Origin: Euborellia annulipes
Lineage: Eukaryota > Arthropoda > Insecta > Dermaptera > Anisolabididae
Length of the DNA: 64,000 bases
Direction: 5' to 3'
Assembly: GCA_023213315.1 (NCBI GenBank)
Contig: JAKCPI010009364.1
Span: 49,826 to 113,825 of the forward strand
The translations under genes were made by a program, and so were the position numbers. This document shows positions 899 to 59,610 of this stretch, piece by piece. A model generated the notes under the pieces. That model was given only the letters and a program-made list of their open reading frames with translations. It ran no database searches and was not told the origin of the DNA. The first letter of the stretch is position 1, and each line of letters opens with the position of its first letter.

Positions 899-3800
899 GT
901 ACCTAATTACATTATTAAAATTATTATTTATAAATTGCAAAACTAACAATATTTCTCATTAAACAAAACCTTGCTTTGTTTTAACAACCTTTAGTTAGTC
1001 ATAGACATAATCCATCATTAGTAGGAGTCAGTGAATTTGATTTATTTAAATTTTTTTTTTTTAGGTATCAAACAAGTTGGATAATGAATATCTTTTGATA
1101 CATGGAGAACAAGTTGAATGGCATCGACCTACATCTTTACAACAGCTTCTTCAACTCAAAGTTAAACATCCGAATTTGAAAATTGTTGTTGGAAATACAG
1201 AAGTTGGTTAGTTTTTATTTATTTATTTATTATTGAAGAGAGAATTTGAAGATAAGATAAGATAAAGATATTATTTTCCATTCACTTAAATAATATAAAT
1301 AATAAATATCTTAACCAACAACTCTTGACTTAAGAGATCTGATATGATTTTTGGACAGCAAAAAAAATTTGGTTTGTGATCCACTTAGGGCATGATTTAA
1401 TTTATTTAAAAGGAGTCATTTTATAAGGGAAGGAGGATTATTATATTGCCTATTAAAAAACCCTAATAGCATCAATTCAATTAAATTGGAGTGTATAGAC
1501 TTTATTAAAAAAAATTCACCTCTATTTTTAAATGAATGAAATTCCGATATATATATATATATATTTAAAGAATTTGATTTTTTTTTAATTTGTTTTTATT
1601 AGAAACTTGTTTATTTTATTTCTTAGTCTACTTTTATTGGTTTAAATTATATATATATTATTAGATCTACAAATTTATGAAACTTTTTAATAAGATATTG
1701 ATCTTGGATATTGAGAAATTGAGAGTAAGTTTATTGAGAGAGTATAATAATATTAATAATAAATGATACAACAAGAAATTATCAGAAACACATATTAAGA
1801 TAAACGAGGATAAATGTATATATGCCGCAATGATGATGAATGTATAAATAGAGTTTGTTCTACAGTGCATGTTTAATTGACTAAATTGTAGGCTATGTAT
1901 GAGAATAATAGGGTCATTCCATGTCAAGTGTTTATATGGTCTCAGTTCTATCATTTTTAATTTTCTTTGATGGTAAAAATTGCCGGTTCATTTGACCTCT
2001 CTTTGTTTTACTACACAAACTCTTTGAAAAAGAAAATTAACTTTTTTTTAAAGCGAGATATTTCAAAAGCATCATCATCTGAATTATTTAAAAGGGTAAA
2101 TTTTGTGCTACAAGAATCATCCATATCCAAGTCGGAACTTGACATAAAAAGGCTTCACAAACATGAGATGAAATCTTAAAAATGTAAAGACATTCTTTCT
2201 TTAAGGTTCGATTGCTTAAAATCGTCCTAATTTCTTGTTGTTTGTTTCGGTTGGGATAGTAAATTTCCCTTGTTCGATTTTATTCAGTAGATGTCAGGAA
2301 AAATGTCTCCTTCAAAACGCTTCCATGGAAAATACATTTTTTTTTTTATATTAAATCATCTTGGAGGGGTCGATATTGGTTGCTTCGGACCAAAGAGAAC
2401 CGACTTGAACTGAGCGGACGTCAAAGATGAAGCTCACGTGAACTGAATCGCAGCCGTTATCAAGTACTCTGCACTTGCTCCGATTCAAGTGAACTGAATC
2501 GGAGCAAGTGCACAGTACTTGATAAAGGCTGCTTCTGCAGTATAGTATTTATATTTTTAATAAATAATTAATACAAAAATGTGGTCTATAATTAAAAATT
2601 CCCCTATTAATAATAATTCAAACCACAAAAGCTTTAATAAATATATCATTATTTCTCAAATTTTAGATTGCGTGGACTAATTCTGTGGTACAAAACAATA
2701 CAAGATCACCTAAGGCCTAATAATAATTCTCTACAAAACGCATTTTATAGCTGTGATGTTATATTAATAAGAGGGTAGAAAATGAGAGATTCAGCTAAGG
2801 TTTTTTTTTATTTTTTCCGCACGGCTGATGATTCGGTTCCGTGTTTGAACCATTTTCAGAGCTGGCGAAGATGGTTCAAACACGGAATCGAAAGGTCGGC
2901 CTTACGGATTTTGTATTTAATGTATTTAAGCACTTAGGCCACACCAAATTGGGCCCTTTGTGCCTGTGGAGTGAGATCTTTTCTCACTTTCCTACCCTAT
3001 GAGGAGACTTCGGCAAATGATAGAATTATGTGCAGCAACCTGGATTCGAACCCGAGCCGTGTTGAGACTTCGAACTGCCTAATCAACCGCATATCCGACT
3101 TAGCCACTTGCCTCCTCAGCCGTACTGATTAAATAAATAAAGAAAAAAAACCTTAGCTGATTTTCTACCCTTTATTAATAATTCTCTAATGTCAATTAGA
3201 TAAATAAATAGTAATTTTAAATATTTTTTTTATATTTTATTTATAGGCGTGGAAGTAAAAGCTCGCCGAATAATCTATCCAGTTCTGGTACAGCCTACTC
3301 AAATTCCTGAATTGTGTGTACTAAATAAAAATGATAAAGGAGTTGTTATTGGAGCTGCAGTTACTTTGGAAACAATGGAAGAATATCTAAAAGAAATAAT
3401 TTCAATTATGCCAGGTAAAACACTCAAAAAGAGGATATAACTTAAATCAACAATAATCAAAAAAAATAAGCACAATATTAATTAAAAAATAAATAAAAAC
3501 ACAAATAGAGAAGATTCAGAGGGGTGAATTTAATACTATAGGGATTACTATGAACTTTTTCATATAAGTTGAATCTATACAACGAAATGAGTTGAAATTG
3601 TTTTTAAAAAAGTAATTTAAAAAAAATTTGGTATAAAATAATTAATAAGAAATTTTTCAAAAATGTAATTAAATGTTTTTATGATTTTCAATAATTATTT
3701 TTTAGAAGCAATTTATATTATGCTAAAAGTAATTTATAAAATTACCATATAAATTTTATATATTATCTCACCAACAGATATTTTATTCAAGAATTTTTTA

Positions 3801-6800
3801 TTTGTTTTTTAAATAATATCATATACTCCTTTTAAATTGAAATTAAAAATAAAAAATGTTTTACATATAGAATATATCGAAATTGTACATTGAATTATTA
3901 ATTTTTTTTATATATAGGTACTGTAAAATTTTCTCTGAAAACCAGGGCCTGAGAAAGAGACAATCTTTAATACATTTCGGCCAAATGTAATTAAATATAT
4001 AAATATATACTATATATATTATAAAATGTATATCGTTCAAATGAATTTTTTATAAATATACGAAAGAGCAAATTTAGTAAATGAAGTATGGAAGCAGAGG
4101 CAGCCAAGAAAGAAAATTCTCCGAATGCTTTGCCAAACAGCTGGAGACGTTTCGGTCCATTTATTATGAACCATCCTCAGTCCATTAATTGGTGTATATT
4201 TAGTATTCTTTTTAACAAATGATGTATATTATATATTACCTGACTAACTCTGAGCAAATATAATAATATAAACCAGTTAATGGACTGAGGATGGTTCATA
4301 AAAAATGAACCGAAACGTCTCCAGCTGATTGGTAAAGCATACAGAGAATTTTCTTTCTTGGCTGCCTCTGCTTTCATACTTCCATACTTCCTTTACTAAA
4401 GTTACACAGACACAACTTTCAACTCAAAGAGCACATTTGCTTTGTAGAAGAGTGTGTCAAGTGTTTGAACTAGATTCAATAAAATTTTAGAAAAAGCAAG
4501 TAAAATTTAATTAAATGATTTAAACTTTCATGATTATTGTTATTAGAAATCAAAGCCATTTTTTGCCCTAAATCATGGTCTATTTAGCAAATAATATACA
4601 ATAAAATGTGTTACTAATTACAATAACATACGTTTCGGCTGCTAATTATGCAGCCGTCATCAGGTAGATGCATTCACTTTGAATATGCCAACAACTAGGC
4701 ACTAGTGAATAATTATTCAAAGTGAATGCAAAGTTATATTTTATTATAATTAGTAACACATTTTATTGTATTATTATTTACTAAAATAAACCCCGATTTA
4801 AGCGAAAAAATGTCTTTTATTTCTAACAAATAAAATTTAAATTATTTATAGAAAATAATTGAAAAAAAAATTGTATAAATGAGCCTACTTGTTTTTCTAT
4901 TAATAATACATATATCATTAGGCACAGCACAGAAGAAATAAGACGGTAATAAAATTTCCTAACGTCTTGGAATTAGGGATCCTAATTGACTCACGCATAA
5001 CAATGCCCTGTCTGTGTGAGACAGACCTTTGTTCAAACAAATAATAGAGACCTTTTTCACAAATATACTAATCTCTATTATTAGTTTTGACAAGTTTCTG
5101 GAGGGCGTAAATGTGTGAGTGTCATTTGTGATGCCTAACTCCTTGGCGTTAAGAAATTAAATTACCCTCTCATTTCTTATGTGACTCGTTGTATATTCAT
5201 GTTCTAATAACGGAGAGAATGCCTTCAACGTTATTCTTGTTTTAGTAGGTAAAAATTCAAAAAAATGAAAAGCTTTTTTCAAATATAAATATTTATAAAA
5301 TATACAATCTATATGTTTATAATACAGGATATATTGATATAAACATTAAGAAAAAAATTTCCTATTACAAATCAAATATTTATCCTTAATTTCATCATCT
5401 CAAGATGAGGCAAAATAAAAAGCTTTCAGTTTCGATTTGGGTTCCGGACCCAACTTAATTAAATGTTCGCCTCCATCTCTAGAACCAACCATATTAAGTT
5501 AACAAAACCCATATGTGGTCATCATCTTATTTAACAAGAGACAAATCAATATAAAAATAAGCTCTATTCATTTCCAGTTCAATAAAATAAAATTAAGCCT
5601 TGCCGTCACGACCTCAAAACCAATAAGCCGATATTTAGTAATTCATTTGGTCAATTTATATATTTAATTATAATGGCAATATCATATAACTATTTATTCA
5701 AATTTTATATTCAATTTCATATTTAAACATGTTTTAATTAATTATAAATTAATATGAATATTTAATCACAATTTCATTAAAACCTTTGACCATTTTAAAA
5801 TGATATTACTTAACACAATTTCAATGATAAATCTAATTTACAAAATAATCTGATGTGACTAGTCGCACAACACACAACTTACCTTAGGTAATCGAAAGTT
5901 GTGTACTGTGCTTGTCACACTAAATTTTTTCGTGTCGAGATATACTGTATTTAATTTTAGCTATATACCTTAGTTCCGAACTTGGGTTTTAAATGTTGAC
6001 TGCTTGAAATAAACTATGGTTATTTTTTGAAATTTTAATCTCATATTTGGATATTTTATACACAATAGGGAATCTTAAATAAATACAAAATTTCATAAGA
6101 AGTGGAAAATTTTTTTTTAAATGTGTAAAAAGTTCCAAAGGGGACCCCCTTTTGAATCTAAATTAACATGCAAATTCCCATAGGGATTTAACATTGGCTC
6201 TATGGAAGGAAGAACCGGAAATGAATTTGAAAAAAAATGGAAATACTACATCAGTAAAGTGTACTTCAGACAATTTTCAGGACGAAATGAGAATATACAT
6301 TTTAAAGAGGTTCTAAAAATAATTGATTTATGAATTTTAATCAAAATCGTTAGAGCCGATTTTGAAAAATTCAAAAAAAAAAAAACTGAAAATGTATTTC
6401 AGTAAAGTACTAGTACTTTTTGGCCGATTTTTTTCAAAAGCTTAGTTTGAGTGTCTGGGAGGGTACGTAACTTAAATATAAAATTTCATGAATTTCCTTC
6501 ATTCTTAAAATTGTTACACACAGACAGACCAATTTGCGGGACCCACTTTTTTGGACTCGGGGGGGGGGGGGGACCTCAAAGCATGTATATCCATCAAAAT
6601 CTAGACATCGAATTTTTGGCAATACTTTCTTTATATATTTCATATATAGGGTAAGAGAAAGTAAAAACAGTGATTTATTCGCATACGTATTGCTCGTACT
6701 ATTACAATCTTCAGTGTTTCAACTCTTTTTACTTAGCGATCCTGTAGCCATCGTCTAAAATCGAAACGGAATAAAAAGAGAATAAAACATATTAATTTGT

Positions 6801-9800
6801 TGCACATCTGTATAAAGACATACTTCGATTGTAATAAAAAAAGACTATCGATTATTTAATATAAATATTTAGTCTATGACTCTAAAAAAAATATTATCTT
6901 GCCTTTAATTCTTTTTAATTTTATTTTCAGAAAATAAAACACGAATTTTTAGAGCTATTGTTGAAATGCTACATTATTTTGCTGGGAAACAAATCCGTAA
7001 CGTTGCTGTGAGTATTTATAAAAAAAAAAAAGTTAGAATTGACTTTTTTTTAACTTTATTGAAATCCACTTTAAGGCTATTGGTGGGAACATCATGACCA
7101 GCAGTCCCATTTCCGATCTCAATCCGATATTGTTGGCTGCTGGGGTAATTTTACAATTAGAAAATAAAGGTAATTTATAATTAAGTTAAAAGTTTGTCTA
7201 ACAAAGCTTCAAAGTATAAAAACCAACTTCTAATTTCCATTTAAACTGGATTCATACTGAAAATAGTGTTAAATATAAACGACAGTAATTTAAGAAAAAA
7301 GTCTGACATAATAAAAAAGAAAAATGAAAAGTGATTAAGAAAACCAAAAGGGAATTTATCTTGGTGTTGACTTTGTATATTTTACAAATTACAAACATTT
7401 CAAAAGTAAACTTCATATATCGTATTTTTCTTTCATTTATCTTTCTTTTAATTTTCTTGAAACCTTCTTATTACTCTAATATTTTTTAATTTTAATAATA
7501 TAATATATTATCGCTGAGCTTAAAAGAAAATTTCTTATACTTTTTTTTTATTTTCTCTAATAAAATTAAAATACATTAGGACCTCGCTCAACGAGCACCT
7601 TTCATATCGAGTAATTTGCATAACGAGCAAAACAAATTGTAAACTTTGCTTAACAAGCGACGTTTCGCATAACGAGTACAAAACACGGACTGGGTCAAAA
7701 TAAAGGTCTGTCCAATTAGTTTATAATTTGGCTTTTATATTTAATATTTGCGCACTTTTAAATTTAGTGATTACAATTTATAAAAAAAAAAAAATTAAAT
7801 TATAAATCTAAATCTTATTATATTAAAGTGATTTTTTTTAAACAATCAAATTTTCCATTATTAATAATTAATTACATATTAAAAACAAGATGAAATAAAC
7901 TCTAATCCACAAATATCTACTTTCTAGTTCCAGTAGCCTCTTAGTTTCGCTTATGATCTTGTGTCTATATTGTGTTATATATGTACAGTGAGGGACAATA
8001 TTAAGTCCCACCCATGCGTTTTCTACTTGTGATTATTTCATTGTTTTTAAAAAATATTAAATATTTTGAATGCTTTCATTGTTCAAACCTAGAAAATTTC
8101 AAAAGATTTTCATTTTCTTTTATAAAAACAATGAAATAATTACAAGTAGAAAACGCATTGGTAGTACTTAATATTGACCCTCACTGTACATAAATAAAAA
8201 TTAATTGAATTAATTATTCAGAAGAAGATAATCAAGAAATAGATTTGAAGATGATTCAATCTCCTTAACAATATGTAACTAATTTCCTTTGATTAAACGT
8301 TATACATAACATTTTCTGAGTATTTTTCTACTTGGAACGCATTATCGTATTTTACATTAATTTATATGAGAAAATTTGTTTCGCATAACAAGTGTTTAGC
8401 TTTACGAGTAATAAACTGGAACGAATTATACTCGTTAAGCGAGGTTCCATTGTAGTTTGTTGCTGGATACTAGATAATTCCAGTACTTTGATAAAATAAT
8501 GACAATAGCTCTTAGTATAATAGTTGGAGTTGAGAGGTTGCATTTACGAAATGCAAACTTGTGTTTTTATATGTGATGTACAGTGAGGGACAATATTAAG
8601 TCCCACCCATGCGTTTTCTACTTGTGATTATTTCATTGTTTTTAAAAAAAATATTAATTTAAATTATTTCACAAAACAATTGACAATTTTTAAGACGTTT
8701 CGGCCAAAATTAATTTACCCAACTTCAATCCGCTAAATAAATTTTGGTCGAAATTTCTTAAAAATTATTAATTATTTATTGAAAAACATTTCTTGTCAGC
8801 ATCAGCTCAACTTCAACAATTATATTTATTTAGAGATTTCATCCAAAAAAAATTTAATTTTGATTTTTTTTCAAAAGACAGAGGCACACGTTACGTTGAA
8901 ATGAATGAAAATTTTTTCACCGGCTATCGAACAAATGTAGTTCACTCTGATGAGCTTCTTATTTCGGTACAAATACCATTTACAAGTGAAAAACAAGCAT
9001 TTGTCGCCTACAAACAAGCAAGAAGACGAGATGATGATATTGCGATAGTAAATTCAGCTTTAAATATAACTCTTGATCCCGAATCAAATAAAATCAAATC
9101 TTGTAGAATGGCTTTTGGTGGAATGGCACCTATAACTGTAATGGCAGTTAAAACTAGTCAATTTCTAATAGGCAGGTAAATAAACATTTATAAAAAGAGA
9201 AATATCAATAAAATTGTTTATTTTTATTTTATTCAATAATTATTTCTATTTCAGAGAGTGGACTTCTGAAACAGTTGAACTTGGATTGGATAAATTAAAC
9301 GAGGAATTTCCATTGGATCCTGGTGCGCCAGGAGGTCAAGCACCTTACAGACGAACACTCACTCTGAGTCTCTTTTTCAAATCATATTTAGCTTCGTTGA
9401 TTCAATTTGGACAAGAATTACCACCTGAACAAATCTCAGGAGCTAAAACATTAAAAACACTAAAGCCAGCTAGTTCGCAATATTATCAAGTGGTATGTAA
9501 ATAACAATTTAATAAGGATAGCGGATGGCAGACAGGAAAAATCAAATCAAATTCTATCAGATTTTCTTTATTTGAATGTCGACGTTTCCTTCCTCAGGAC
9601 CTGTATTAATATACATTAATAATTACAATAAAATATCACTAAAGACAATTATCTCCTTGCTTCGATCTCTCTCTATACTTACAATCAATCGTCAAGAAAA
9701 AAAAAATATAAATGGACGTATTGGTACTTTAAAGAAAACTGAAATCGTGCATGGAATAGACGGCAAATTAAATTTTGCCCCCCTAAAAATCCCCTAGTTC

Positions 9801-12800
9801 CGGCCCTGAATAGACCTGATACAATTTCAATAGTTGAAAAACTGAATGTCAGTCTAGTGAGTGCACAGCTAGAGAGTGGACGTACAGTGAGGGACAATAT
9901 TAAGTCCCACCCATGCGTTTTCTACTTGTGATTATTTCATTGTTTTTATAAAAGAAAATAAAAATTTTTATTGGAAATTTTCTAGGTTTGAAGCATGAAC
10001 GATTCCATTAAAAAATATATAATATTTTTTTAAAAACAATAAAATAATCACAAGTAGAAAACGCATGGTTGGGACTTAATATTGTCCCTCACTGTACGTG
10101 ACTGGAGCTCTTCTTATCCTGAACTGAATTCGATTACATTGTCTTTACTGATATTTTATTGTAATTATTTATGTTTTGATCATAGGTTCTGAGGAAGGAC
10201 GCGACTGGCGTCCCAAACGTCGACATTCAAATAAAGAAAATTGATTTTATTTATTTTTCCTGGCTGCCATCCGCTATCCTTATTAAGATATACAGCCATA
10301 TTCTTCATCAACAATAATTTGTATTTAAAAAAAAAAGATAATTAAAACATCTAAGTGTGCAACTCATGACTTTCTTGTACGACTATTAAACTACTCCTTG
10401 TAATGATATATCTGCTTATTTGATTTAGTTTGAAATAATGCCCTAAACGAATCCGCAATCAAAAAAATAAAATTGGAAAGTAATTTTCTAGATCAATGAA
10501 GTTTTTCTATAGACAAGAAAAGGAGCTTGTGCAACCAAAAATAAAAGCCTCAGGTTTATTACAATTCAACGAGACGTTCATTCCCACTTAATAAGTATGA
10601 TGGGCCAACTCGCCAGCACATATGCATGGGTGTAACTAGAAAATTTGGCTGGGGGGGGGGCATGGGACCAGCTATCCACCGGTGGGCCTGGAAAGCCCCA
10701 TATTTTCTCAATTTTTCTTGGGGCAAGGAACTTTCTGGGGGGGGGCAGGCCATATAGTACGCCATAGTTACGCCCATACACATATGATACTGTACATAAA
10801 TTCATATGTATAGTCCTATTGACCAACTCGGGTATTTTAACAATTTTGGAGGACTGAAGATGGGTAAATAAAATTCACCCGAAATGTCTCGTTGAATTGC
10901 AATAAATTGAGAGGCTTTTTATTTTTGGCTGCACCTGCTCCTTTCCCTGTCTATAATTTTCTAGATGTTAAACAATCCTAACCACAAAATTTCAACATTC
11001 TAGGACTAGCTGTTTTTAAATTAAGCGAGATACCATCTATTGCAATAGTATTTGAGACTAAAGCCCGATAGTTAGGCAGCCCAAATGGGGCACGCTCACT
11101 AAACTTTTTTCTGATTAAAACATTCAGATAATTTTTATTTCGATATATCTTGAAATTTATACTAAAAAGATCAATTTTTATGGTTATTTTGTAAAAAAGG
11201 GATCATTCGGACAATTGTCTGCTTTGAAAAAGGTATTTCTCACACAGACAAACTGCCATTTTGGCTGCCTAACTACCGGGCTTTAGTCTCAATACTATTG
11301 CAATAGATGATACAGCCCTTTTTTACAAAAGAATAACGACGTAATTGGATTAGGGCTGGTTAATATGAATATTTTAATTGAAATCTCGAACTTTAAAATT
11401 ATCTGAATGTTTTATACTTCCTTAACTTCGTACAAAGAAGTAAAAATGATAGATTAAATACAATATTCTTTGCCAGGTGTTAGAGATTAAACGCTACATG
11501 ACCTCAAGTATAATTTTTCATTATTGATTTTGGATTGGTCCTTTAACGTAAATCTTGTTTACCCTCTCTCTGCTTGCATGTTATAAATAATACAAATATT
11601 TATTTATGTGAATATTTATAGGCTTCACACGATAGACCAGATTCAAGCAAATTGGGGCTTCCTATTATACATAAATCAGCGTTAAAACAAGCAACTGGTG
11701 AAGCGATTTATTGCGACGATATGCCTAAATTTGAAAACGAGCTCTACCTTGCTCTTGTATTATCTACTCGAGCACATGCTAAAATACTTAAAGTTGATGC
11801 TACAAAAGCACTTCAGGTGCCAGGTGTGCACGCATTCTTTTCTGCTAAGGTATTTAAATCTTAAATAAAAATTATTATTTTTTTCATCAATTTTACTTTA
11901 ACTCCAGTCTTTTCTCTATTTTAGGACCTCAAACCAGAAAATAATAAATGGGGAGCATTAACGCACGATGAAGAATTATTTGTTTCTACTAAAGTTACTA
12001 GTATTGGTCAAACAATTGGTGCTATAATTGCCGAGGATCAACTTATAGCCCAAAGAGCAACAAAATTAGTCGAAATTGAATATGAAAATATAGAACCAAT
12101 TATTATTACTATAGAGGTATTATTTAATTTTTAATTAAATTTAATATAATATGAAAAGGGATTATATTTTATTTATAATATAAAAGAGTGAAAAACATCG
12201 TATATAATGGTTTAATTTTGTTAATTAAAACTTCCATTTTTATATAAACGAAAACAAAAAAATAAATTAAACCCATTGAATTCTATATTTTCATAAATTT
12301 TCCAAAAAAAAAAAAGATTAAAATCTATCCTTCCTTTCATATGAATATAAATAATTGAACATTTCGCATTTGGAAAGAAAAATAATTACGCTCTTTTAAT
12401 AATGTAAATTAACTTTTCTTTTTTAATTAAAAAAAAATCTGGTATGATTGACCGCACATCATCCCAGATTATTTTTGAGACATGCGGTTTTATATCCGAA
12501 CCAAGATATAATCATTTATAATCATTTAAATAGGAAAATATTTGTATTTTGTTAGTGTAACAACTATCCTATCTTTTATAAAGTATAAGAATAAAGAGGA
12601 TTTTAAACCATTTGGGAAGAATATACATTTTAAAGATCATCTAGAGATTTTCATATGAAGGTAGAAAAATGAGATGCAGCTAGAGTTTTTTCTTTATTTA
12701 TTTAATTCATACAGCCAACGTTTCAGTTCCGTATTTTGAACCATCCTCAGAGCTGGCGAAAAGTCACTATGAGAGTGTCACAGTGGTTTTTATATATAAT

Positions 12801-15800
12801 TGAACCAAACCCTTATATAATAAATATATTTATTAATTATTAAATATGTATACAATCCATTGTGACACTTTCATAGTGACTTTTTGCCAGCTCTGAGACT
12901 GGTTCAAATACGGAGCCGAAACGTCGGCTTGTGTGAATTGAAAAAATAAAGCGTCTCTCATTTTTCTACCATCTTATGAATATAACATCACATCTATAAA
13001 TTGCCTTTTGCATCTAGAGATTTATAAATTTTACTCAAAATTACTAATAAAAAAATTTTTGAAGAATATTTTAATAACTTAAGAAATAATTAAATCAAAT
13101 TTTTTCCTTCAATTGGATACCAATTGATATAAATAAATATGCTTAAATTATATGTTAAATAAAAGAAATAATAAATACTACATATTTTTTTTAATCAATT
13201 TTTTATAGGAAGCGATTGCTGCCAATTCATTTTTCCCTGATTGCTATAGAAAATTGTCATGTGGAGATACAGAAAAAGCATTTAAAGAATGTAAATATAT
13301 AGCAGAAGATGAAATTCATATGGGTGGTCAAGAGCATTTTTATTTAGAAACTCATTGTACTATTGCCGTTCCACATAATGAAGACGATGAAATGGAGATT
13401 TTTTGTTCAACCCAAAATCCAGCAGAAACTCAGGTAATTATATTTTTTTAAATAATTAACAACAAAACATAATACTTCATTAAATTTGTTATAGAAATTG
13501 GCGGCAGAAATCCTGGGAGTGCCACAGAATCGAATTGTTGTCCGTGTGAAACGGATGGGAGGTGGATTCGGAGGCAAAGAATCGCGTTTTTCTCTTGTCT
13601 CCCTTCCCTGTACCTTTGCAGCACATCGCCTTCGTCGTCCAGTACGATGTATGCTCGATCGAGATGAGGATATGACAATCACTGGTGGACGACACCCGTT
13701 TCATGCAAAATACCGAATTGGTTGCACCGAAGATGGTCGCCTTTACGCCTGTTCCGTTAAAATTTACAATAATGCTGGTTGCACACAAGATTTATCGTTT
13801 GCGGTAAATGACCGATAAACACTTTTCAATTTTAACTTTAAAACGAAATGTGGAAAAACATTCTATTATTATGAAATAAAAGTAACTAGATTGAATCCAA
13901 GGCCCCTCCACAATTGTCAAATTTGGTTAAATAAAAAATTAGATATCTGGAGCTGTATAATTTTTTGAATAAATATTTAATAATTCGGCTTCTGACCTAA
14001 ACCAGTTTTCCCAATTAGCACTAGCTTTACGAGAGAGTATTTATCTTTTTTTTTTATTGACATAGATATTCAAAGGTTTCCTCAAGCTGAGTTAAACGAA
14101 AATTTTGACCTATATAAAAAAAAACTTCGCAAAATGTTTTTTTTTTTTTTTTTTTAGAAGATTTTATATGTATTACTTTCTCTTACTTATATAAGTAATA
14201 TATAGTGAGAAAGTATTGCGATCATGTCAAAAATTCGATGTCGAGATTTTGATGGATATACATGATTTGAGTCCCCTGGGTCCAAAAAAAGTGTTTTTTG
14301 CAACATCGGGTGTATCTGTCTGTCTGTGAACAAAATATCTCCCCTAGAACGTGACACGAAGCTTTTGAACCAAAAAAGTATTAGTACTTTACTCATTTAC
14401 TTTTTCAGTTTTTTTCAATTTTCTCAAAATTGGCTCTAACGATTTTGATTAAAATTTCTATTTTTTTTAGATGCTCTTTAAAAAGTATATCAGTAAAATT
14501 ATTCGATAAAATTGTTTGAAGTATATTTTACTGATGTGGAAGCTCAGCGCTATCTATGAAACGCGTGGTCAAGTTTGAAACTAAGGTGCTATAGGCAACT
14601 AAATATATCTCGACACAAATAAATCTGGCGTGACGACAGTACACAAATTTCAATTTCCAAAGTTAAGAGAAAATCGTGTGCTGTGCGTTAACCACACCAG
14701 ATTTTTTAAAATTGATTTTAATTAATTTAATCGAGGGATAAGAACATAAATTACATATTAACGACAAATCGTTGACAAAAAATTAATTTCTTCTCCCCGA
14801 ATTTCCTTTTTTATTAATAAAAAATATAATTTGTCAGGGTTTTCTATATATATATGCTATCGTTTTTTTTTTACATTAATTTTTGAAGTGTAGATCTTTT
14901 TTTTCGGAGGGGGTGGTTTCAATCTTGATCTGTGCAACAGTCACGACTCTATTACGTTTGCGTGTTCAAATTATCTCCTACCGGCTGTGATCGACCAAAA
15001 ATCTCTTCGTGATCGACCTGTTGGCCATTCCTGCTTTAGAGGATAGGATTAATCTGAATATGATCTTTATTATTCGCCTTTAGAGAAATGGTGTATGCAA
15101 ATTATAATAACCAGACGTTCTCTTTAGTTTTAATGTATTTCAAGTGTGTTAATTGTAAAAGGCTTTGTTCGTTTGGAGCATTGAGAAAGACAATTGAGTG
15201 CATTATAATATTATATATTAAGTTTGGTATATCCACGAGTGGCTATTCGTTGGTTGAAATAGTAATAAACACGAATGAATTTGAACAAAAGATTTTATAG
15301 TTCGAAATAGTTGAATAGAAGAATGAAACTGGTTAGTTTAAATTAAAGCTTTCATTTGCCTTTTAATACTCTCTCATATTAACGTTTAATATTCGACTGT
15401 TGTTCAAAAATTAATTAAATCCTATTTATAAGATTTATTTTCATTGATAATATAAAATTCCATTTCAGGTTCTTGAACGTGCGCTCTTTCACATCGAAAA
15501 TTCATATAAAATTCCTAATCTTGTAGTAGAGGGGTGGGCTTGTAAAACCAATCTTCCATCGAATACTGCTTTCCGAGGATTTGGCGGGCCTCAGGGCATG
15601 TTCGTAGCTGAGACTATGATCCTACATTTGGCAACCATCGCCCAAAAACCGATTATTGAGGTTGGTATATTTTCTTCTTGTTTTATTTTTATTAGTACTT
15701 TTACTTTCTCTTACCTATATACAATATATATATAGAGGGAAAGTATTGAGATCATGTCAAACATTCCATGTCGAGATTTTGATGGATATATGGTACATGT

Positions 15801-18800
15801 TTTGAGGTTCCCTGATTCCAAAAAGTGGTCTGTCTGTCTGTGTGTTACACAGTGGTGGATTAATGCAATTTTGTCGGGGGGGGGGCGGTTTTTTTTTTTT
15901 TTTTATTTAAGGACTTTGTGGGCATCTATGGCCATTTAGACCCCTTTCCTATTTATTTAAATTGATTGGTAACAAATTCAATTGAAATTAAAGCCCGGAA
16001 ATCATAATTTCTTTAGATTACTAGTTTTTATAACATTGTGAATTTCAACTCGGGGGGCGATCGCCCCCCCCCCCCCTTTAATCCGCCCCTGGTGTTACAA
16101 TTGAGCTACGGGATTGAAATTTTATATTTAAGTTGGATACCCACACGGACAATGAAAATAAGCTTTTGAACAAATAAGGTACTAGTACTTTACTGAAGCA
16201 CTTTTTCAGTTTTTTTCGAATTTCTCAAAGCCTTTTAACGATTTTGATTAAAATTCAAAAATCAATTAATGCTCTTAAAAAAGTATATCACTAAAATTTT
16301 TCATGATAATTGTTTGAAGTAGACTTTACTGATGTACTTTTTCATTTTTTTTCGATTTTCTCAAAATTGGCTCTAACGATTTTGATTAAAATATATATAT
16401 AAATCAATTATTTTTTAAATCTTCTTTGAAATGTATATTTTCATTTTGTCCTGAAAATTGTTTGAAGCACACTTTAGTATTTCAGATTTTTTCAATTCAT
16501 ATTCCGACTCTTCTTTCCATAGAGCCAATGTTAAATCCCTATGGAGATTTGAATGTAAATTTCGATTCAAAAGGGTGTTTTGAACTTTTTACACATCTTA
16601 AAAAGTTTTTTCGAATTCTTATGAAATTTTATATTTATTTAGGATTCTCTATTATGTATAAAATATCCAAATATGAGATTAAAATTTTGAAAAATAACCA
16701 TAGTCGACATTTGAAACACAAGTTTGGAACTAAGGTGCTATGGGAACCTAAATATATCTCGACACAAAAAAATCTGGTGTGACAAGCTCAGAATAAAACT
16801 TTGCTTTACCGAAATTAAGAGAAAGTTGTGTGCTGTGCGACCAATCATACCAGATTTTTTATTAGAAAATATTCATATTATACCATAGACTGCCCCATAT
16901 GTTCCTCATATATTTAATTATTAAAATAACGGGAAAATAAAAGTTTAAACTGAATAAACTTTTTTTTTAATTTATTTGTTTGAATGGATGTTATTTTTAA
17001 TTGAAGCCGAGTTGTAATTTTTCAAGCGGAATTAAATAAAACAGATTATTTTGTTATCGACATTTTCAATGTTTTAACTCACACTTTCTCAAGAGTGACA
17101 ATAATATTTGAAATGTCGATGACAAACTAATCACTCCGCTACAAACGGTAGTAGGTCGGAAAAATTCTATATAGATTGGAAAAAAATATTTTAAAATTTT
17201 CAGAGGATATTTATTTTTTTAATCCCTTGGAAGATATTTTTTTTTATTTAAAACCAACATGAAAGAGTAAATAGATTTTTTCGTAATATATTTTAACTTG
17301 GCAAATTTACTGCCTAATTTAAGCGTATCAGCTTTGATATATGTATAATATTAATTTATTAAATAAATATAGATAGAAACGCATTCAACTGAATGTTCAT
17401 ATTTATAAATTTAGAATCTATATAGAGCCCTATCTTGCAATCAGTTGAATGCACATCTCTTTATGATTTGATTAATTAATCTATTAACGTATATCAAAGT
17501 TGATTGAATGAAAAAAAATAAAGTAGCTGAATTGAATTATAATTATTCTATTGTATTGTTTTTTTATCAAGAATTATTTTTCTTTACAGATGATGGAGCT
17601 CAATCTCTATGCTGAAGGAGAAAAAACTCATTACGGACAAGAATTAATTAATTGCACACTAAGTCGTTGTTGGGATGAATGTAAAACACGTGCCAAAGTA
17701 CAGGAACGATTAGCAGCTATTGAGAAATTTAACAACGATAATCGTTGGCGTAAACGAGGCCTTTCTCTAATCCCAACGAAATTTGGTATTGCCTTCACTG
17801 CTAAATTTTTAAACCAGAGTGGAGCTCTCATTCATGTTTATACGGATGGTTCGATTTTATTAAGCCATGGTGGAACAGAAATGGGACAGGGATTGCATAC
17901 TAAAATGATTCAGGTAATTTTTTGATTTTATCCATATGAATTTCACAATGGTACCAATATGAAATTTGCGCTAAATCTCGTCTTTGGGAAAATTCGGGTA
18001 CTAGTACTTTACTGATCTACTTTTTTAGATTTATCCAATTTTCTCGAAATTCTATTTAATGATTACTTCAAAATTGTAAATATATACCATTTCACGAAGA
18101 GAAATAAATTTCCACTAGGTCTCGTCTTTGGGAAACTTTGAGTACTAGTACTTTACTAATGTACTTTTTTAGTTTTTTTCACTTTTCTCGAAATTCGCTT
18201 TAATGATTTCTTTAAATTTTTAAATATTTACTATTTCTGGAAGAGAAAACAAATTCTGTTTGATCTCGTCTTTACAAAACCTCGGGCACTAGTACTTTAC
18301 TGATGTACTTTTTTAGATTTTTCAAATCTTCTCGAAATTCTCTTTAACGATTTTTTTCAAATTTTAAATATATACTATTTACGGTATACAAAACAAGTCA
18401 GGTTTGATCTCGTTGTTTGGAAACTTCGAGTACTAGTACTTTATTGATGTACTACTTGTTTAGTTTTTTCCAATTTAAAAAAAAGAAAACGACCTATCTA
18501 CAGCTCGGTTAACCAAGAAGTGATTTATGTGGCGCATTTAAGGAGGTGAGGTATAGAAAACAAATTCCGTAGTAATTTATTGATGTACTACTTTTTTAGT
18601 TTTTTCCAATTAAAAAAAAAAACGACCAAGCTCCAGCTAGCTCAACCCGGAACTACTATAGTCTTAATTTTTTAGGTTGCTGCTCATGTTCTTGAGGTGG
18701 ATGAATCTTTAATTCATATCGCTGAAACTTCGACTGATAAAGTTCCCAATACTTCACCGACAGCAGCCAGTGCAGGCTCTGATCTTAATGGAATGGCAGT

Positions 18801-19303: not shown

Positions 19304-19339
<36 letters not shown>

Positions 19340-22300: not shown

Positions 22301-25300
22301 GTGGGATAGTCATTTTTTATTTACTTTTCTCTAAAAATATTTTTCAAAAAAAATTTACAATTACAATTGTTTATTTCTTCAGGACACCTGATATTGGTTT
22401 CGATTTTAACGTTGGTACTGGAAAACCCTTCAATTACTTTACTTATGGTGTCGCCTGTGCTGAAGTTGAAGTCGATTGTCTTACTGGTGATCATATGGTA
22501 ACTATATATTATATGTTTATTAAACCTTTTGTGGTTTGTTTTATTATTATAATGGGATTTCGTATTAATTATTAATTAAAAATATAAATACTGTTCAACG
22601 TTTCGACTGCTTTCTCAGTTCACTTCAATCGGAGCAAGTATACAGTACTTGAAAACGACTGCAGAATAAGCATTCGAAACGTTGTACAGTATTTATATTT
22701 TTAATAAATAATTAATAACAAAATGTGGGCTATAATTAAAAACTCCCATAATAATAATAGGCTATATATATTATAACTAACTAAAATTATATTTCTATTG
22801 ACTGATTTTTTTCTAATTCAGGTTCTTAGTACTAATATAGTAATGGATTTGGGATCAAGTCTAAATCCAGCTATAGATATTGGACAAATTGAAGGCGGTT
22901 TCATTCAAGGCCTTGGATTATTTACTCTTGAAGAAATGATTGTGGGCAGTAACGGGTTTATATTATCAAGGGGTCCAGGAGCATATAAGATACCAGGCTT
23001 TGCTGATATACCTGCAGAATTCAACGTTAGCCTCCTTAAAGGAGCACCTAATCCAAGAGCTGTTTTTTCTAGCAAGGTATATATATATTTTATATTTAAA
23101 TTTTATATTGTTGAATACGAGAGGTATATATGTATTTCTATTGTAAAATTTCTAATTTCGTACTTCTATATATCATGAGAGTGTATTAATCATTTGAAAA
23201 AGACATATGATGTAAAGTCCGCACGTATAACAAAACGAATAACCAATTCCAATAAAATGAAACGATAAACCTTTCAATCTTCTGAAAATTTGCTGGATAA
23301 TGAAAAAATATTTTTATTTGGAGATCTCAACTTTGAAAATAAATAAATAATTACTAAGCTGAAGACATCTCAGATTCAAATCCATCTCATGACAAAAATT
23401 ATTCAAACCTATCAGTAATACGAAGAAGGAACCCACCTCGCTTACTTCCCTGAGTTACCACAAATTGTCAGTTCTGACACTAATGACTGAAGAGATTATA
23501 CTATATACATATTTGTTTAATGACATAACAACGTCTTACTATGTTGGTATAGGGACCGGGTAGGGAGGCATGCACGAAAAAGTTGGATAAAAGCACATGA
23601 AAAATTGCTCGTTATCGGCTCGTCTTAAGAAGTATAATTATTTTGAATACACGGTTAAAAAGAATTATTCTTCAGATAAAGATTTTATTTTTTTTCTTAA
23701 TATTTCATTTTACCACGTGAGAGCGCGCGGTGGGAAATTCTTATTTAAAGGTTTAAACCATTGTAGATTCCGAACAACTAATCAGATCAGACTAAATTTA
23801 ATGTCAATTTATGCAGAAAGAAAAGCTCTAATTGAGTATTTATAAAAAAAATCGCAATTAGTAAACTCTAGAATCAATTTTTTTTTTTTTTTTCAAAAAA
23901 CCTCATTTTTTAAGCAAAAAAAAATTCATTTTTCCGCAATGGATATCTATTTGACCATAAAAGCTTTTTATTTTTTCCGATTGAAACCCTTAAGTAAAAA
24001 AATATTTTTCCCATTATATTAATATTAACTAATTCGGGGAGAGGTTTCCAACTAAGGTCAAATATTTGATGTAGAAAAAAAAAGGAAATTCTACTCCCAA
24101 CATATTCCCTAAAAATACGTTGATTACCGTTTGTTCCGGTCGATGCAGCACACAAACGGAGATGTATGAGAATGGATCGATGATATTATCGCCTTGGAGC
24201 ATGAGGAATTCTTTCATCACAGCTGCTGTTGTAAAGATGGCACAAGGTGGTCCTAAAACATTGAATGAAAAATTCCATCATTTCTTTTATATTAATAAAA
24301 AAATACTAGACATATTTTCATATTATATAGATTTTTAAAATATTAATATGACATATCTTGATATAGCATATTTAAAAATCTGGTGTGAATAGTCGCACAG
24401 TACACAACTATCTCTTACCTTTGGTATGAGAATGTTGTGTTCTGTGCTTGTCACACCAGATATTTTGTGTCGACATATATTTAGTTTCCGGCAGTCTATA
24501 CTGCATATGTAAAATTTATAAAGATGAGAAAATATTTATATTCTGTTACCATGGCAACCATTTCTTTTATCTTTCCTATGAAGTACAAGAGTAAAGTGTG
24601 CTTCAAACAATTTTGAGGGCAAAAGGATAATATACATTTTAAAGAGTATCTAAAAAATAATTGATTTTTGAATTTTAATCAAAATAGTTTGAGCGAATTT
24701 TTAGAAAATCGAAAAAAACTGAAAAATTACATCAGTAAAATACTAGTAATTTTTAACAGATTTTGTTCAAAAGCTTCATGCTATGTCACATGGAGGTACC
24801 GAATTTAAATATAAAATTTCAACCTCCTAGCTCTTTTCGTTCTTGAGATAAATTGTTCCCTGACACCCAGACCATGTTGCGAAAACCACTTTTTTGGTCT
24901 CGCTATACAATTCGGGTTCAAATCCCACTTGCCATGAAAATTTTCTAACATTGCCAATGTCTCCTCCGTCTCTCTGTAATTGGGGTTAATCTCTGTTGAG
25001 AGATGGGAAAATTAAAAAAAAAAAAAAATCTCGACATCGAATTTTTGACATGAATCCATTACTTATATATTTACATATATAGTAGGTAAGAGAAAGTAAA
25101 AATTCAATGTGCTATTTAATTTGTTTTCTCTATTAATAAAATATAATGTCCAGTCAGGGTATGCTAAAACAAATTAATACAGAAATTAAAATACATACCC
25201 TGGTATTTCTTTTAATGACTGTAAAAGTGGGGGGGGGGGTAATGCCTATGGCTATTTGCTACATTATATAAAAGAGAGAATGCTATTCTCATATGTAATA

Positions 25301-26640
25301 ACAATAAAACAAAATATTTTATAAATGTATATAATCTTCCCATTTAGAAATTGGTTTGACAAATAAAAACATAGAGATGAAGATTTTATTTTAATAGAAA
25401 TGTTCCATTTATATAATAAAAATGTGAATTCTTGCTTTTCCTTTAAAATTGTGTTGACATCTTGTTGATTATTTAAAATCTTATTTGTTGAATGGCAGAT
25501 TCATTTCGAAATTAATTTCCAGGCTGTTGGAGAGCCGCCACTTTTCTTGGCCTCGTCAGTTTTCTTTGCAATACGAGAAGCGATACTTGCAGCCCGCAAT
25601 GAATCTCAACCGGACAAAAAACACGAATGGTTCAGATTTGATTCTCCAGCAACATCCGGGGAAATTAGGATGGCAATACAAGATAATATTACAAAGAAAG
25701 TATGTTTCTAAATAATTATTTTCGAATGTTATTTTTATAATATTTATTTATTTAATCAGGATCCGAAAGAACTTTGCAGTCAGGAGATTAAATAAAAAAA
25801 CATTTTATTTAATTTTTATTCGCCGGCGTTTCGGTCGCCAATCACGATCTTCATCAGGGCAAATATTGTTAACTATACAAGATTTTTAGGAATTTTAATG
25901 TCTATTACAATCAGAGACATCGAGTAAGCAAGTAAATGATAATTTTTGTACATATGAAATTAAAAGGAAATTGTATATGCTTACAATAGACATTAAAATA
26001 AATGCCCGTCGCACGGTCTGACGCCAGTCACAGCTAGGGCAACTCGTGGTCGCCATCCACGTACCCACAAGATGTGGGCCCCTGAGCAAAACTAAGATCA
26101 TGTATAGCTAACAATATTTGCCCTGATGAAGATCGTGATTGGCGACCGAAACGCCGGCGAATAAAAATTAAATAAAATATTTTTTTATTTATCTCCTGAC
26201 TGCAAATTTCCTTCGGATCTTGATTAAATCTCCACAACCATAAAATCTTAAGAAAAGTAAATGAAAGTTGTTATTAAGTAGCAGGATGAAGAAAAGAAAA
26301 AGCAGCTAGCATTTATTTAATTTATTTAAGGCCCATTTGGCTAACGTTTCGGTCTCGCTATAATACGCCTTAAATAAATGAAATAAATCCTAGCTGCTTT
26401 TTCTTTTCTTCATCCTGCTACTTATTAATAAAATCTTAAGTTTTTATTAAAGCTTTTGTGGTTTGAATTATTATTATGGGAATTTTTAATTTTTTCAAAT
26501 TCACTTGAGTCGGAGCAAGTGCACAGTACTTTAAAACGACTGCAGAATAAGCAGTCGAAACGTTGTACAGTATTTATATTTTTAATAAATATTTAATAAC
26601 AAAATGTCTAAAATTAAAAATTCCCATAATTATCTTAAGT

Positions 26641-26671
<31 letters not shown>

Positions 26672-26794: not shown

Positions 26795-27000
26795 TTGGAT
26801 GCTGGGTATATGAGATTGAAGTTGAGAGGAATGGAACCAGCTTTTACACTTTAATCAAGGCAGACGTTTCGGTAACCATAACGGTTATCTTCAGTACCAA
26901 TGTAAGTTTCTCCTGTCTTATAAGAAAGTTCTATAAGCATTACATTAAGATGGCAATCGTTATGGTTACCGAAAGTCGTTCGACTAAAAAAGCTGGCTTC
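26795..27000. repeat. Foldback element just 3' of XDH
   Basis: The left arm carries gacgtttcggtaaccataac; the right repeats gttatggttaccgaaagtcg, then aaaagctggctt, complement of aaccagctttt. Right arm truncated. The 109-codon open frame beginning at 26950 starts in it and is not a gene. Confidence 0.6.
26859..26898 (-). ncRNA. Hammerhead-like motif near XDH 3' end
   Basis: Minus strand: GGTA, CTGAAGA, TAACC/GGTTA hairpin with two extra C, GAAAC, GTC, TGCC. Helix I is 4 bp with a U.G pair. Stem II looks as if two G were lost. It lies about 120 bases past the stop and, being minus-strand, is not in XDH mRNA. Confidence 0.45.
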
Positions 27001-35689: not shown

Positions 35690-36385
35690 TCTCTAATGAT
35701 TATTTCATTGTATTTTTTTTAATATGAAAAGTTTTTAATAAAAACATCTGGATTAAAAAAAAAACATAAAATAAAGATAATCCAATAAAGATTTCCATCT
35801 TATTTTATAAAAACAATGAATTAATCACATGTGAAAACCTAAACGGAGATGGGTATTGCCCCTCGTCTAATTTCTTGTTCTAGGAGACAGAGATACGCTT
35901 CCCTTCTTATAGTGATAAATTTTTATTTATTGACTGAAAGATCTTTAATGGAAACTTGTGGATTTAAAAAAAAATATACATAAAGATAATCCGATAAAGA
36001 TATCCATCTTATTTTATAAAAACAATGAATTAATCACATGTGAAAACGTAAAGGGAGATGGGTATTGCCCCTCGTCTAATTTCTTGTTCTAAGAGACAGA
36101 GATGCGCTTCCCTTCTTATAGTGATAAATTTTTATTTATTGACTGAAAAATCTTTAATGGAAACTTGTGGATTAAAAAAAAAAAAAAAAAAAAACATAAA
36201 TAAAGATAATCCGATAAAGATTTCCATCTTATTTTATAAAAACAATGAATTAATCACATGTGAAAACGTATAGGGAGATGGGGATGCTTTAATATTGCCT
36301 GCCCCTCGTCTAATTTCTTGTTCTTGGGGACAGAGATGCGCTTCCTGTCTATAGGGATAACATTTTATTTATTGACTATCAAATA
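35690..36385 (+). repeat. Three tandem copies of a 210-220-bp MITE-A derivative
   Basis: The phrase ttttataaaaacaatgaatt recurs at about 35806, 36015 and 36235. Each unit carries taatcacatgtgaaaac, ggagatggg, cccctcgtctaatttcttg and cttcc. The first part is one arm of MITE-A; the rest is flanking DNA amplified with it. Confidence 0.75.
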
Positions 36386-37270: not shown

Positions 37271-54711
<17,441 letters not shown>

Positions 54712-56709: not shown

Positions 56710-56805
56710 TCTTATTGCATGATGGTATATATATTATACAATCAGGTAATATTTTTCTTAAATACTTTTAAGTGAATTAAATATTATTTAACATAACAAA
56801 TTTGC

Positions 56806-58045: not shown

Positions 58046-58669
58046 TACTAGTATATATAAATTTTCAAGCTTTTAAATCTTTTTTTATAATTTCGCCTTA
58101 TTTTTATATATTTGTGATAATTTTTTTTTTCTATTATTTACTATCTTTTTCGTTCTACATAAGTTTTTCTGGATCATATGCGTGCTAATCTTTCTACCAA
58201 CACTCAGGCGTCTGATTCAACAGCATAATTTATATTTATTTATTTTAAAACATTAAATTTAAGAAACCAAAGTAGTGTCCGAATGCTGGTATCTTTATAT
58301 TATTATTAATATTATTATAAATTTTGAAATTAAATAATTTTCTTAGCAGCTAGACAAAACCCTTATAACAAGTAAATATTAATTATTATGCTGCAGATGC
58401 TTAGACTCCCCATTTTCAAAAATACTTTAAAAGTTTGGCCAGAATTTCATTGGGTGTGAGGTAGGTTGCTGAAAGATTTGAATTGATTGTTGCTAAAAGT
58501 TGATGCTATTGTCAGTTAATTGTTGAACTTTTAAAATACAAAAAAAGAAATGGAGAAAATAATAAGTATATAATTAATATTTACTAAATGATCTAGTAAA
58601 TATTAATTATATAAGAGTTAAGGAAAAAATAAACCAGCGGTTGCTTTCCACATTAAAATAATTTATTTG

Positions 58670-58710
58670 GCAAATATTTCGGATTGCCTAACTCACTCCA
58701 TCCTCAGTGC
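58670..58710 (-). ncRNA. Hammerhead-like motif, degenerate
   Basis: Minus strand: GCA, CTGAGGA, extra T, short stem GGA/TCC with a long loop, GAAAT, ATT, TGC. Helix I is 3 bp. AUAU replaces ACGU near the site, so self-pairing is kept. The right-arm copy reads TAAAT and is dead. Confidence 0.4.
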
Positions 58711-58792
58711 ATCAACTGGACTGTGCATCAACATAAAAAGACATATATGATACAATTGATAGGCAATTTTACAATATTATATAATATACGTA

Positions 58793-58915
58793 CAGTGAGG
58801 GAAAATATTAAGTCCCGTTTTTTATTTGTGATTATTTTATTGTTTTTAAAAAAAAATATATATTTTTTTTGAAAAAATTTTTTGTTTAAAAAAAAAAAAA
58901 TTTTTAAAAAAAATT

Positions 58916-58920
<5 letters not shown>
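58793..58920 (+). mobile_element. MITE-A half copy
   Basis: tacagtgagggaaaatatta then collapses into A/T runs up to 58960. Confidence 0.65.
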
Positions 58921-58964
<44 letters not shown>

Positions 58965-59217
58965 AATATTATATAATCAATATAAAATCCGTATATTATA
59001 CATATGTGGAGCGTGTTTTAAAATGATAAAAATTAATATGAGAAGCCATTCTACAATTGGAGAGGACCCAACGTTTTTTGATGACCAGGCTACAGAGGGG
59101 GAAACTGAAAACATTTTATTATTACAAGATGTCACATAGTACAATCATATGTTATAAAATTTATTATTAACTCATATAACTGATATAACTGGTTATATTT
59201 TTAAAACCCCCAAAAAG

Positions 59218-59425
59218 CAGTGAGGGACAATATTAAGTCCCACCCATGCGTTTTCTACTTGTGATTATTTCATTGTTTTTATAAAAAAAATGAAAATCTT
59301 TATTGGAAATTTTCTAGGTTTGAACCATGAAAGTTTCCATTAAAAAATATATATATTTTTTTTAAAACAATGAAATAATCACATGTAGAAAATGTATGGG
59401 TGGGACTTAATATTGTCCCTCACTG
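59218..59425. mobile_element. MITE-A copy 9
   Basis: 208 bp palindrome; ends cagtgagggacaatattaag. Flanks are AG and TG rather than TA, so the target site has changed or the copy moved within a larger unit. Confidence 0.82.
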
Positions 59426-59610
59426 TGCATATATTGATTATATAATATTATAAAATTGCCTATCAGTTGTATCATAAACGAGTATGTCTTTTAATGTTCC
59501 AGTTGATGCACTGAGGATGGATTTCGTTAGGCAATCCTAAATAATTGCCAAATAAATTATTTTAATGTGGAAAGCAACTGCTGGTTTATTTTCTCCTTAA
59601 CTCTCTAACG

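Follow-up and report, generated by a model that had tools for sequence, protein, structure and literature searches.

We describe foldback elements, inverted repeats that carry predicted minimal hammerhead ribozymes, in a 64,000-nucleotide stretch of the Euborellia annulipes genome (GenBank assembly GCA_023213315.1, contig JAKCPI010009364.1, positions 49,826 to 113,825, forward strand; this whole stretch is hereafter the window), and we follow them across the assembly. These foldbacks are probably short Penelope-like element (PLE) insertions that lack an open reading frame (ORF) and arise by two-ended target-primed reverse transcription from two start sites. Nearly every insertion with a confident target-site duplication (TSD) has a short end and a long one, the stretch between the two end sites holds one strand of an RNA stem that covaries, and a coding PLE of the same genome carries the same kind of ribozyme and tail.

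Hammerhead cores in the window and across the genome

The core pattern CTGANGA-N8-30-GAAAC occurs ten times in the window, against a mean of 0.39 and a maximum of 3 in 100 shuffles; one of the ten matches, at 45903, lacks a covariance-model match and is probably due to chance. A single extra base stands between CTGANGA and helix II in all ten best copies, and a descriptor that also scores helix I finds that helix in all but one of them. We built a covariance model, R1, from ten window copies, one per element, each of which has the extra base. R1 gives 23 matches in the window at E<=1, including 20 at E<=0.031, of which 10 are the training rows. At E<=0.031, 13 foldbacks have at least one match; two more were recognised by eye (B1, near 2450, and P26268), and a lone decayed copy, E8, lies at 26854..26904 (- strand, 21.4 bits). 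This is close to the count of at least fourteen given in a preliminary description of the window, which had also reported the core segments in hammerhead order with one extra base.

The helices of these copies covary. Among 11 rows, one copy per element and with the B4L row out of register, 56 of 66 helix II cells are paired (shuffle mean 40.4, best 54), and none of 20,000 permutations did as well. The preliminary description had named covariation in this stem alone; helix I covaries too (44 of 66 cells, mean 30.6, 8 of 20,000 permutations as good). With the two helices combined in a 10-row alignment, 80.8% of cells are paired, against 56.3% after shuffling and 23-44% after sliding the 3' partners. 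One measure, the number of pairs changed on both sides, did not exceed shuffles in the window alignment (10 against 7.8 shuffled, 33/500); the others did. Covariation extends to further copies: the window-trained R1 finds 74 matches at E<=0.1 in other contigs totalling 219 kb, of which 200 kb was unselected and the remainder picked for pairs. In an alignment of these matches fitted to the model, 81.3% of cells in helices I and II are paired, compared with 55.6% in shuffles, and two-sided changes number 239 against 93. As in the window, pairs showing any two-sided change were no more numerous there than in shuffles (11 against 10.9, 435/500). Together, these data support the view that the predicted hammerhead architecture is under selection at the RNA level.

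The Rfam models do not see these copies. A search of the window at the gathering cut-off and at E<=5 returned no hammerhead; its 26 matches all fall below the cut-off and mostly belong to microRNA families. The preliminary description had worded such an outcome as a refutation, yet the purpose-built R1 finds the copies. They have the CUGANGA...GAAA core and covarying helices I and II of a type I hammerhead and lack its full helix III: in most copies GAAAC is followed by GTC, which reduces helix III to two pairs with no loop (GAAACGTC). The NUH cleavage triplet is GTC, GTA, GTT, ATC or ATT in most window copies, with the variants GCC (E7), GAT (E9, B4) and AAT (right arm of E12), and is mostly GTC outside the window. 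Since the ACGT within GAAACGTC is self-complementary, a hammerhead dimer is possible, and with helix III missing the ribozyme may work only as a dimer or with protein, if it works at all.

A divergent subfamily, B1-B4, was grouped by eye and has the form TTGANAA-X-helix II-GAAACGTT, with TTTAAAA in B3. R1, trained without this subfamily, nonetheless recovers three of its copies (at 48821 on the - strand, and at 22639 and 26520 on the + strand; 32.2-36.5 bits). The C3-G8 pair of the hammerhead core has been used for ribozyme mutants (PMC11167929); if C3 pairs with G8 in the fold, then U3-A8 keeps the core pair in the divergent subfamily. A U3-A8 lineage replacing C3-G8 would, if true, be a natural compensated hammerhead core.

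Genome-wide counts cover the assembly of 903 Mb in 25,949 contigs, with a reversed-sequence control. The strict pattern CTGANGA-N8-24-CGAAACG has 66,001 matches (33,063 + 32,938) against 75 (35 + 40) in the control, and the core forms UUGANAA and CUGANAA have 8,010 (control 509) and 3,454 (control 131). Divergently oriented core pairs 70-100 nt apart number 2,928 against 0, a figure in which most of the places listed appear twice, once per strand. In the unselected 200 kb (contig C11) the descriptor finds 37 copies against 1 in the reversed control, with one extra base in 30 of them, two in 4 and none in 3. Neighbouring copies less than 500 bp apart in this sample form 9 divergent pairs, 3 convergent pairs and no tandem pair. 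If this single sample with its 9 pairs is typical, the foldbacks would number tens of thousands.

Target-site duplications, unequal ends and the tail stem

A search for direct repeats in the flanks of 15 window elements, with 210 pairs as the null, gave a TSD score of at least 11 in 7 of the 15 (null 7/210), P26268 standing outside that count. This search placed no TSD for E4, E7, E10 and B1. All 12 placed window elements have unequal ends, by 16-53 nt as measured from a landmark chosen by eye; B4 has an (AAT)n expansion.

The same asymmetry appears at 58 loci outside the window that carry divergent hammerhead pairs. Eighteen of these (L009-L026) were hand-picked from the first 100 strict-pattern places, and 40 (L049-L088) come from the first 100 divergent-pair places. 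About half of the loci, 27 of 58, reach a TSD score of at least 11, against 46 of 3,306 mismatched flank pairs, and the TSDs vary from 11 to 18 bp. In 26 of these 27 loci the two tails differ by 24-39 nt; among the 46 chance repeats, 11 fall within 20-42. The long tail lies right in 13 and left in 13 of the 26. Were the site chosen independently at each end, the chance of at least 26 unequal elements in 27 would be at most 28/2^27, about 2e-7.

The two kinds of end flank one strand of a tail stem. By reading, most tails contain TGGCTG...CAGCCA and others TAGCTG...CAGCTA, and single families have other complementary pairs, namely GCTGG/CCAGC (E12, L015 and the coding PLE described below) and CACAGTT/AACTGTG (E9). 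A blind test for the best contiguous helix was not significant (941 of 20,000 permutations) because chance helices in AT-rich sequence swamp the signal; the conclusion that there is a stem relies on an aligned two-letter test and on four genome-wide counts. Of 39 long tails aligned by motif, 14 have no motif of that form, and in L055 and L061 a later motif was picked up although CAGCCA is visible by eye in both. In 322 kb of sequence the second-position combinations are G-C 21 times, A-T 8 times, crossed never and TTGCTG-CAGCCA twice. Genome-wide, the paired forms TGGCTGC/CAGCCA (G-C) and TAGCTGC/CAGCTA (A-U) occur 6,621 and 4,024 times, and the crossed forms TGGCTGC/CAGCTA (G.U wobble) and TAGCTGC/CAGCCA (A.C mismatch) 390 and 152 times, all four being zero in the reversed control. 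These counts come from related, non-independent copies; both pairings far exceed the crossed forms, and the wobble exceeds the mismatch. The tail stem thus covaries genome-wide. The motif is present in 26 of 28 placed elements; in these 26 the 3' strand of the stem begins 11 +/- 3 nt beyond the short end, and the long end is reached 15 +/- 4 nt past that strand, so that one strand of the stem sits between the two end sites.

A coding Penelope-like element with the same kind of ribozyme and tail

Genome-wide scoring of 150 of 710 candidates lists 118 matches to the GIY-YIG domain, in open frames of up to 852 aa, and several of the matches form -/+ pairs a few kb apart. One locus, L089 (C15649:1-4700), holds an 852-aa frame at 1267-3825 in which both reverse transcriptase (PF00078) and GIY-YIG (PF01541) score above cut-off; among the homologues of this frame is a protein of 860 aa from the butterfly Euphydryas editha. 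R1 places hammerheads of the extra-base form in both copies of its pseudo-long terminal repeat (pseudo-LTR), at 1213-1266 and 4145-4198 (37.7 bits), and the hammerhead and tail stand at the junction of pseudo-LTR and ORF. A 300-nt direct repeat and 681-nt inverted arms at this locus are both 100% identical, and an assembly artefact is possible. By eye, the second pseudo-LTR ends at 4282, after a ...GCTGG...CCAGC... tail stem. A small foldback abuts this end, with hammerheads at 4335 (-) and 4461 (+) and the TSD ATTTAAATTCTA.

The genome thus holds a coding relative with reverse transcriptase and GIY-YIG in one ORF (one of the two read) and a hammerhead in its pseudo-LTR, and the layout of inverted pseudo-LTRs with a tail of about 31 nt at one end and a short TSD is present in 26 of the 27 confident-TSD loci, out of 58. 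As the coding PLE shares the extra-base hammerhead and has a similar tail, ORF-less PLE insertions are the best reading of the foldbacks, rather than a free-standing family. The window elements have no ORF of their own: they are too short, and no reverse transcriptase or GIY-YIG is seen by eye in frames of at least 78 aa. They would therefore be non-autonomous, and PLE machinery is their likely carrier, since a ribozyme and tail of the same kind occur at the pseudo-LTR/ORF junction of the coding element.

Foldbacks that differ in their centres

Foldbacks that spread as finished units would be expected to share their centres. In all eleven same-family pairs with tails at least 94% alike, the spacers from hammerhead to hammerhead are unequal, by 11-117 nt. 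The pairs are L012/L054, L012/L076, L054/L076, L013/L059, L013/L066, L059/L066, L014/L060, L024/L061, L025/L026, L065/L071 and L080/L081; members recur among them, so the eleven comparisons are not independent of one another. Several of the alignments continue through the centre, with gaps. The arm-length score ran through the centres and was useless, and the printed centres were judged by eye: in each pair the extent of at least one arm, or the upstream sequence, differs, although L014 and L060 have the upstream end of the long arm in common. Since all eleven pairs differ in their centres, the foldbacks appear to form anew at each insertion. The preliminary description had spoken of a family with repeated spread and decay; that the foldbacks spread by themselves as a family is not supported. 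By eye, L051, L091 and L092 have both centre and flanks in common and are a single insertion duplicated with a host repeat, all three copies of which carry one foldback at the same place.

Foldback elements and host genes of the window

This stretch is rich in A and T, with 24-35% GC per 2-kb step. The exons of a xanthine dehydrogenase gene lie at about 0.6-25.7 kb, and those of an ABCC/MRP transporter gene at about 42-55 kb; the best matches of the joined exon string of the first gene are insect xanthine dehydrogenases, going by the named ones among 120 listed of 6,461. A Pfam scan of 10 of the 156 window ORFs returned host-gene domains or no match. The foldbacks sit between exons of these two genes and range from intact to dead copies, as the preliminary description had it. 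Its statement that their arms are unrelated needs amending: by eye E1 and E6 belong to one family, with different centres, and B1-B4 to another.

E1 (2734..3175) is flanked by the TSD TAATAATTCTCTA (2721-2733 / 3176-3188), with its long tail left and its short tail right; its left-arm hammerhead (2818..2869, - strand, 42.3 bits) is a training row. A probable tRNA-derived short interspersed element (SINE), with a B-box-like motif by eye, is nested in the right arm at about 2915-3120 on the reverse strand. E2 (4076..4425) has tails of 73 and 109 nt and a weakly scoring TSD with one mismatch, AAAGAGCA[A/C]ATTT (4063-4075 / 4426-4438). Its left arm holds a hammerhead at 4137..4190 (-, 46.0 bits) and its right arm one at 4275..4328 (+, 54.3 bits, training row), in which core, GTC and helix I are intact by eye. 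E3 (4511..4830; TSD TAAAATTTAA, 4501-4510 / 4831-4840, weak score) contributes the training row at 4620..4673 in its left arm (-, 47.2 bits), with a poor helix I. Further training rows are the right-arm hammerheads of E4 (element 9509..10310; hammerhead 10179..10230, +, 49.2 bits) and E5 (element 10494..10953; hammerhead 10844..10897, +, 49.4 bits) and the left-arm hammerhead of E6 (element 12651..13010; hammerhead 12708..12760, -, 50.8 bits). E5 has the TSD TAATTTTCTAGAT (10481-10493 / 10954-10966) and ends that differ by 16 nt; E6 has the TSD CATCTAGAGATTT (12638-12650 / 13011-13023), with the short tail left and the long one right.

B2 (22514..22764), of the divergent-core subfamily, has the TSD TATATATTATA (22503-22513 / 22765-22775). 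E7, with tentative ends at 25760..26239, has hammerheads at 25816-25867 (-) and 26113-26164 (+) with GCC replacing GTC in both. P26268 (26253..26427) has a TSD of 13 exact bases, ATAAAATCTTAAG (26240-26252 / 26428-26440), and a partial hammerhead by eye, and B3 (26444..26631), whose left arm is tail only, has the TSD ATCTTAAGTTT (26433-26443 / 26632-26642). P26268 and B3 lie side by side (26240-26642) with overlapping target duplications and adjoin E7, an abutment like that of PLE end and foldback at L089. E9 (43283..43554; TSD TATATATAAAGAT, 43270-43282 / 43555-43567) has its hammerhead at 43362-43415 (-). The divergent-core element B4 (48760..49266; hammerhead 48821-48874, -) has a weakly scoring TSD with one mismatch, AATC[T/C]ATTATAAA (48747-48759 / 49267-49279). 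The best R1 match of the window, 56.8 bits, is the hammerhead at 53183-53234 (-) in E11 (53094..54173; TSD AATTTAATTATTAA, 53080-53093 / 54174-54187). E12 (58609..59633) has hammerheads at 58664-58717 (-) and 59501-59554 (+) and a weak 9-bp TSD; by eye it is like the coding PLE of L089 in the 3' side of the ribozyme and the tail.

Some palindromes in the range that the preliminary description had assigned to hammerhead-bearing repeats are of another kind. Those at 7975-8197, 9880-10099, 53893-54102 and 59218-59425, and part of 8564-8656, have no hammerhead and look like a palindromic miniature inverted-repeat transposable element (MITE) with ends TACAGTGAGGGACAATATTAAGTCCC and TA flanks, which we take from this signature to be mariner-like. 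The MITE is nested in three foldbacks: in E4 (at 9880-10099), E11 (at 53893-54102) and E12. A tandem array at 35725-36377 was considered as a retrozyme and rejected; its three 209-bp units are, by eye, the interior of the mariner-like MITE. Elsewhere, tandem arrays of a 144-bp unit at 17962-18476 and 27735-27996 are related by eye. A palindrome at 46971-47233 with GGACCGAAACAGAC and a layered inverted repeat at 62805-63359 show no convincing hammerhead, and a palindrome at 8667-8784 has a marginal R1 match at 8685-8734 (-, E 0.35).

Discussion

We propose that the mobilised RNA would run, 5' to 3', from the pseudo-LTR through a minimal type I hammerhead, with its extra base and almost no helix III, and a short linker to the tail stem-loop. 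Both target strands would be cut about 11-18 bp apart, and each exposed 3' end would prime reverse transcription within the tail. One would use a proximal site (S), about 11 nt ahead of the 3' strand of the stem, and the other a distal site (L), about 15 nt beyond that strand. The two cDNAs would then run through tail and ribozyme toward the pseudo-LTR for variable distances and be joined head to head, leaving a palindrome with a TSD, one short end and one long end. The ribozyme may act in RNA processing or folding. In the stronger form of this proposal the reaction would be concerted, so that each event obligatorily uses both start sites, one per target strand, and short cDNAs yield the short/long palindromes; we regard this form as evenly balanced between right and wrong. 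A dimeric enzyme on one RNA, or a first strand that occupies one site, are candidate reasons for the use of both sites.

Several observations weigh against this proposal. Two independent primings would not alone force one S and one L end, and in the Anolis system the start sites are the same for both strands and ribozyme mutants still insert in vitro (PMC11167929). Arm length is not tied to the site: judged by eye, the arm with the long tail is the longer one in L014, L060, L065 and L081, a match broken by L061, L066 and L071. The asymmetry rests on 27 loci, as 31 of the 58 do not reach a TSD score of 11 (by eye some loci without a TSD are nested or decayed), and one of the 27, L021, has two short ends of 66 and 63 nt. 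These 27 come from a revised script; a first script recognised 34 loci, with 17 of 19 in range. The window TSDs of E2, E3, E12 and B4 score 9-10, and a score of at least 9 is reached by 54 of 210 null pairs. Tested loci were preselected for two good hammerheads, and 18 of the 37 copies in the unselected 200 kb are in divergent pairs. The copies are predicted hammerheads that may or may not cleave. Two coding PLEs were read, and the 849-aa frame of the second, L090, gave reverse transcriptase alone, below the Pfam cut-off, in the protein scan (its GIY-YIG scores 30.5 bits in the genome-wide scoring) and has a weak hammerhead (12.7 bits, E 0.17).

The main rival to two-primer insertion is snap-back copying, in which one strand primes at L, the cDNA folds back, copies itself as far as the S region and joins the other target strand. 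The likeness of the arms within an element (77-100% identity in 54 of 58 elements compared) fits this, and self-priming on an antisense template is proposed for Adineta PLE inverted repeats in the consulted part of PMC3846280. Such copying must halt at a fixed point every time, yet S resembles a real reverse transcription start site of the Anolis system, and we consider snap-back unlikely. Much further down the scale are self-contained MITE-like or SINE-like units copied as palindromes. Several listed divergent-pair places do have one centre in common, as such units would; the sole shared-centre group that was followed, L051/L091/L092, is however an insertion duplicated with its host repeat, none of the eleven close pairs agrees in spacer length or, by eye, in centre, and the ends within one element are unequal, which together make this reading very improbable.

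Two further readings merit hardly any credence. Animal retrozymes, tandem type I hammerhead repeats that move as small circular RNAs, share the type I architecture and co-occur with PLEs according to the consulted part of PMC7229834; here none of 12 neighbour pairs in 200 kb is tandem, half of the copies are in divergent pairs and there is no real helix III. Inverted ends and target duplications would also suit the terminal inverted repeats of a DNA transposon that merely resemble hammerheads. DNA transposons with terminal inverted repeats, and MITEs, should have equal ends and TSDs of fixed length, whereas the ends here are unequal in 26 of 27 loci and the TSDs span 11-18 bp; two covarying helices around an RNA core and the match to a coding PLE also speak against this reading.

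The PLE reading is in keeping with what is known of PLE insertion elsewhere. The protein of an Anolis PLE (PAc) cuts and extends both strands, reverse transcription starts at two adjacent internal sites separated by a 30-40 bp 'tail', and the ribozyme cleaves only with the protein present (PMC11167929). Our elements resemble PAc in the hammerhead at the pseudo-LTR/ORF junction, the tail of about 30-40 nt between two reverse transcription starts, the AC-rich stem-loop at the start site and, presumably, the cutting and extension of both strands. They differ from it as ORF-less palindromes of high copy number that almost always combine an S end with an L end, and whose ribozyme has an extra base and whose tail stem is seen to covary. 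In Adineta vaga, a typical Penelope insertion is flanked by a 9-bp TSD and has inverted pseudo-LTRs, one of which bears a 31-bp tail; the families there share with ours the inverted pseudo-LTRs, the tail on one side, short TSDs (8-10 bp) and inverted-junction palindromes, as far as the consulted part of PMC3846280 goes. The cases described in that part are mainly ORF-bearing, with self-priming proposed and the tail called optional rather than present once per insertion, unlike here. In the open-licence literature that our searches covered we found neither a near-obligatory rule of one short and one long end nor a covarying stem between the two sites, nor palindromic ORF-less PLE insertions as a mass component of a genome.

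Minimal PLE hammerheads are a known kind of ribozyme, and in the work of Cervera and De la Pena (2014) and Lunse et al. (2017) they reportedly act as dimers. In the Chrysanthemum chlorotic mottle viroid hammerhead an extra A adjoins helix II. PLEs are known to carry minimal hammerheads, which also occur scattered through animal genomes (PMC7761336 and PMC6155905, in the parts consulted), and ours are like them in being type I, without a real helix III, in PLE pseudo-LTRs and dispersed (PMC7761336); beside these, most copies here have the extra base between CUGANGA and helix II, and there is a UUGANAA subfamily. A natural extra A in the catalytic core is reported for the plus hammerhead of the viroid in the consulted part of PMC3705267, in a different hammerhead type and context; in the copies of this genome the added base is usually A or T and occasionally C.

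The insertion mechanism of PLEs is still an open question, and the in vitro Anolis study did not settle what the two start sites and the ribozyme do. The E. annulipes footprints are numerous enough to show that the two ends of an insertion nearly always fall at two different fixed sites, and that these sites flank one strand of a covarying RNA stem, which provides a concrete model and a large natural data set. They show, too, that an insect genome can contain minimal hammerheads in very large numbers that are invisible to Rfam. If the concerted reading is true, the foldbacks would be the footprint of two-primer insertion by PLEs.

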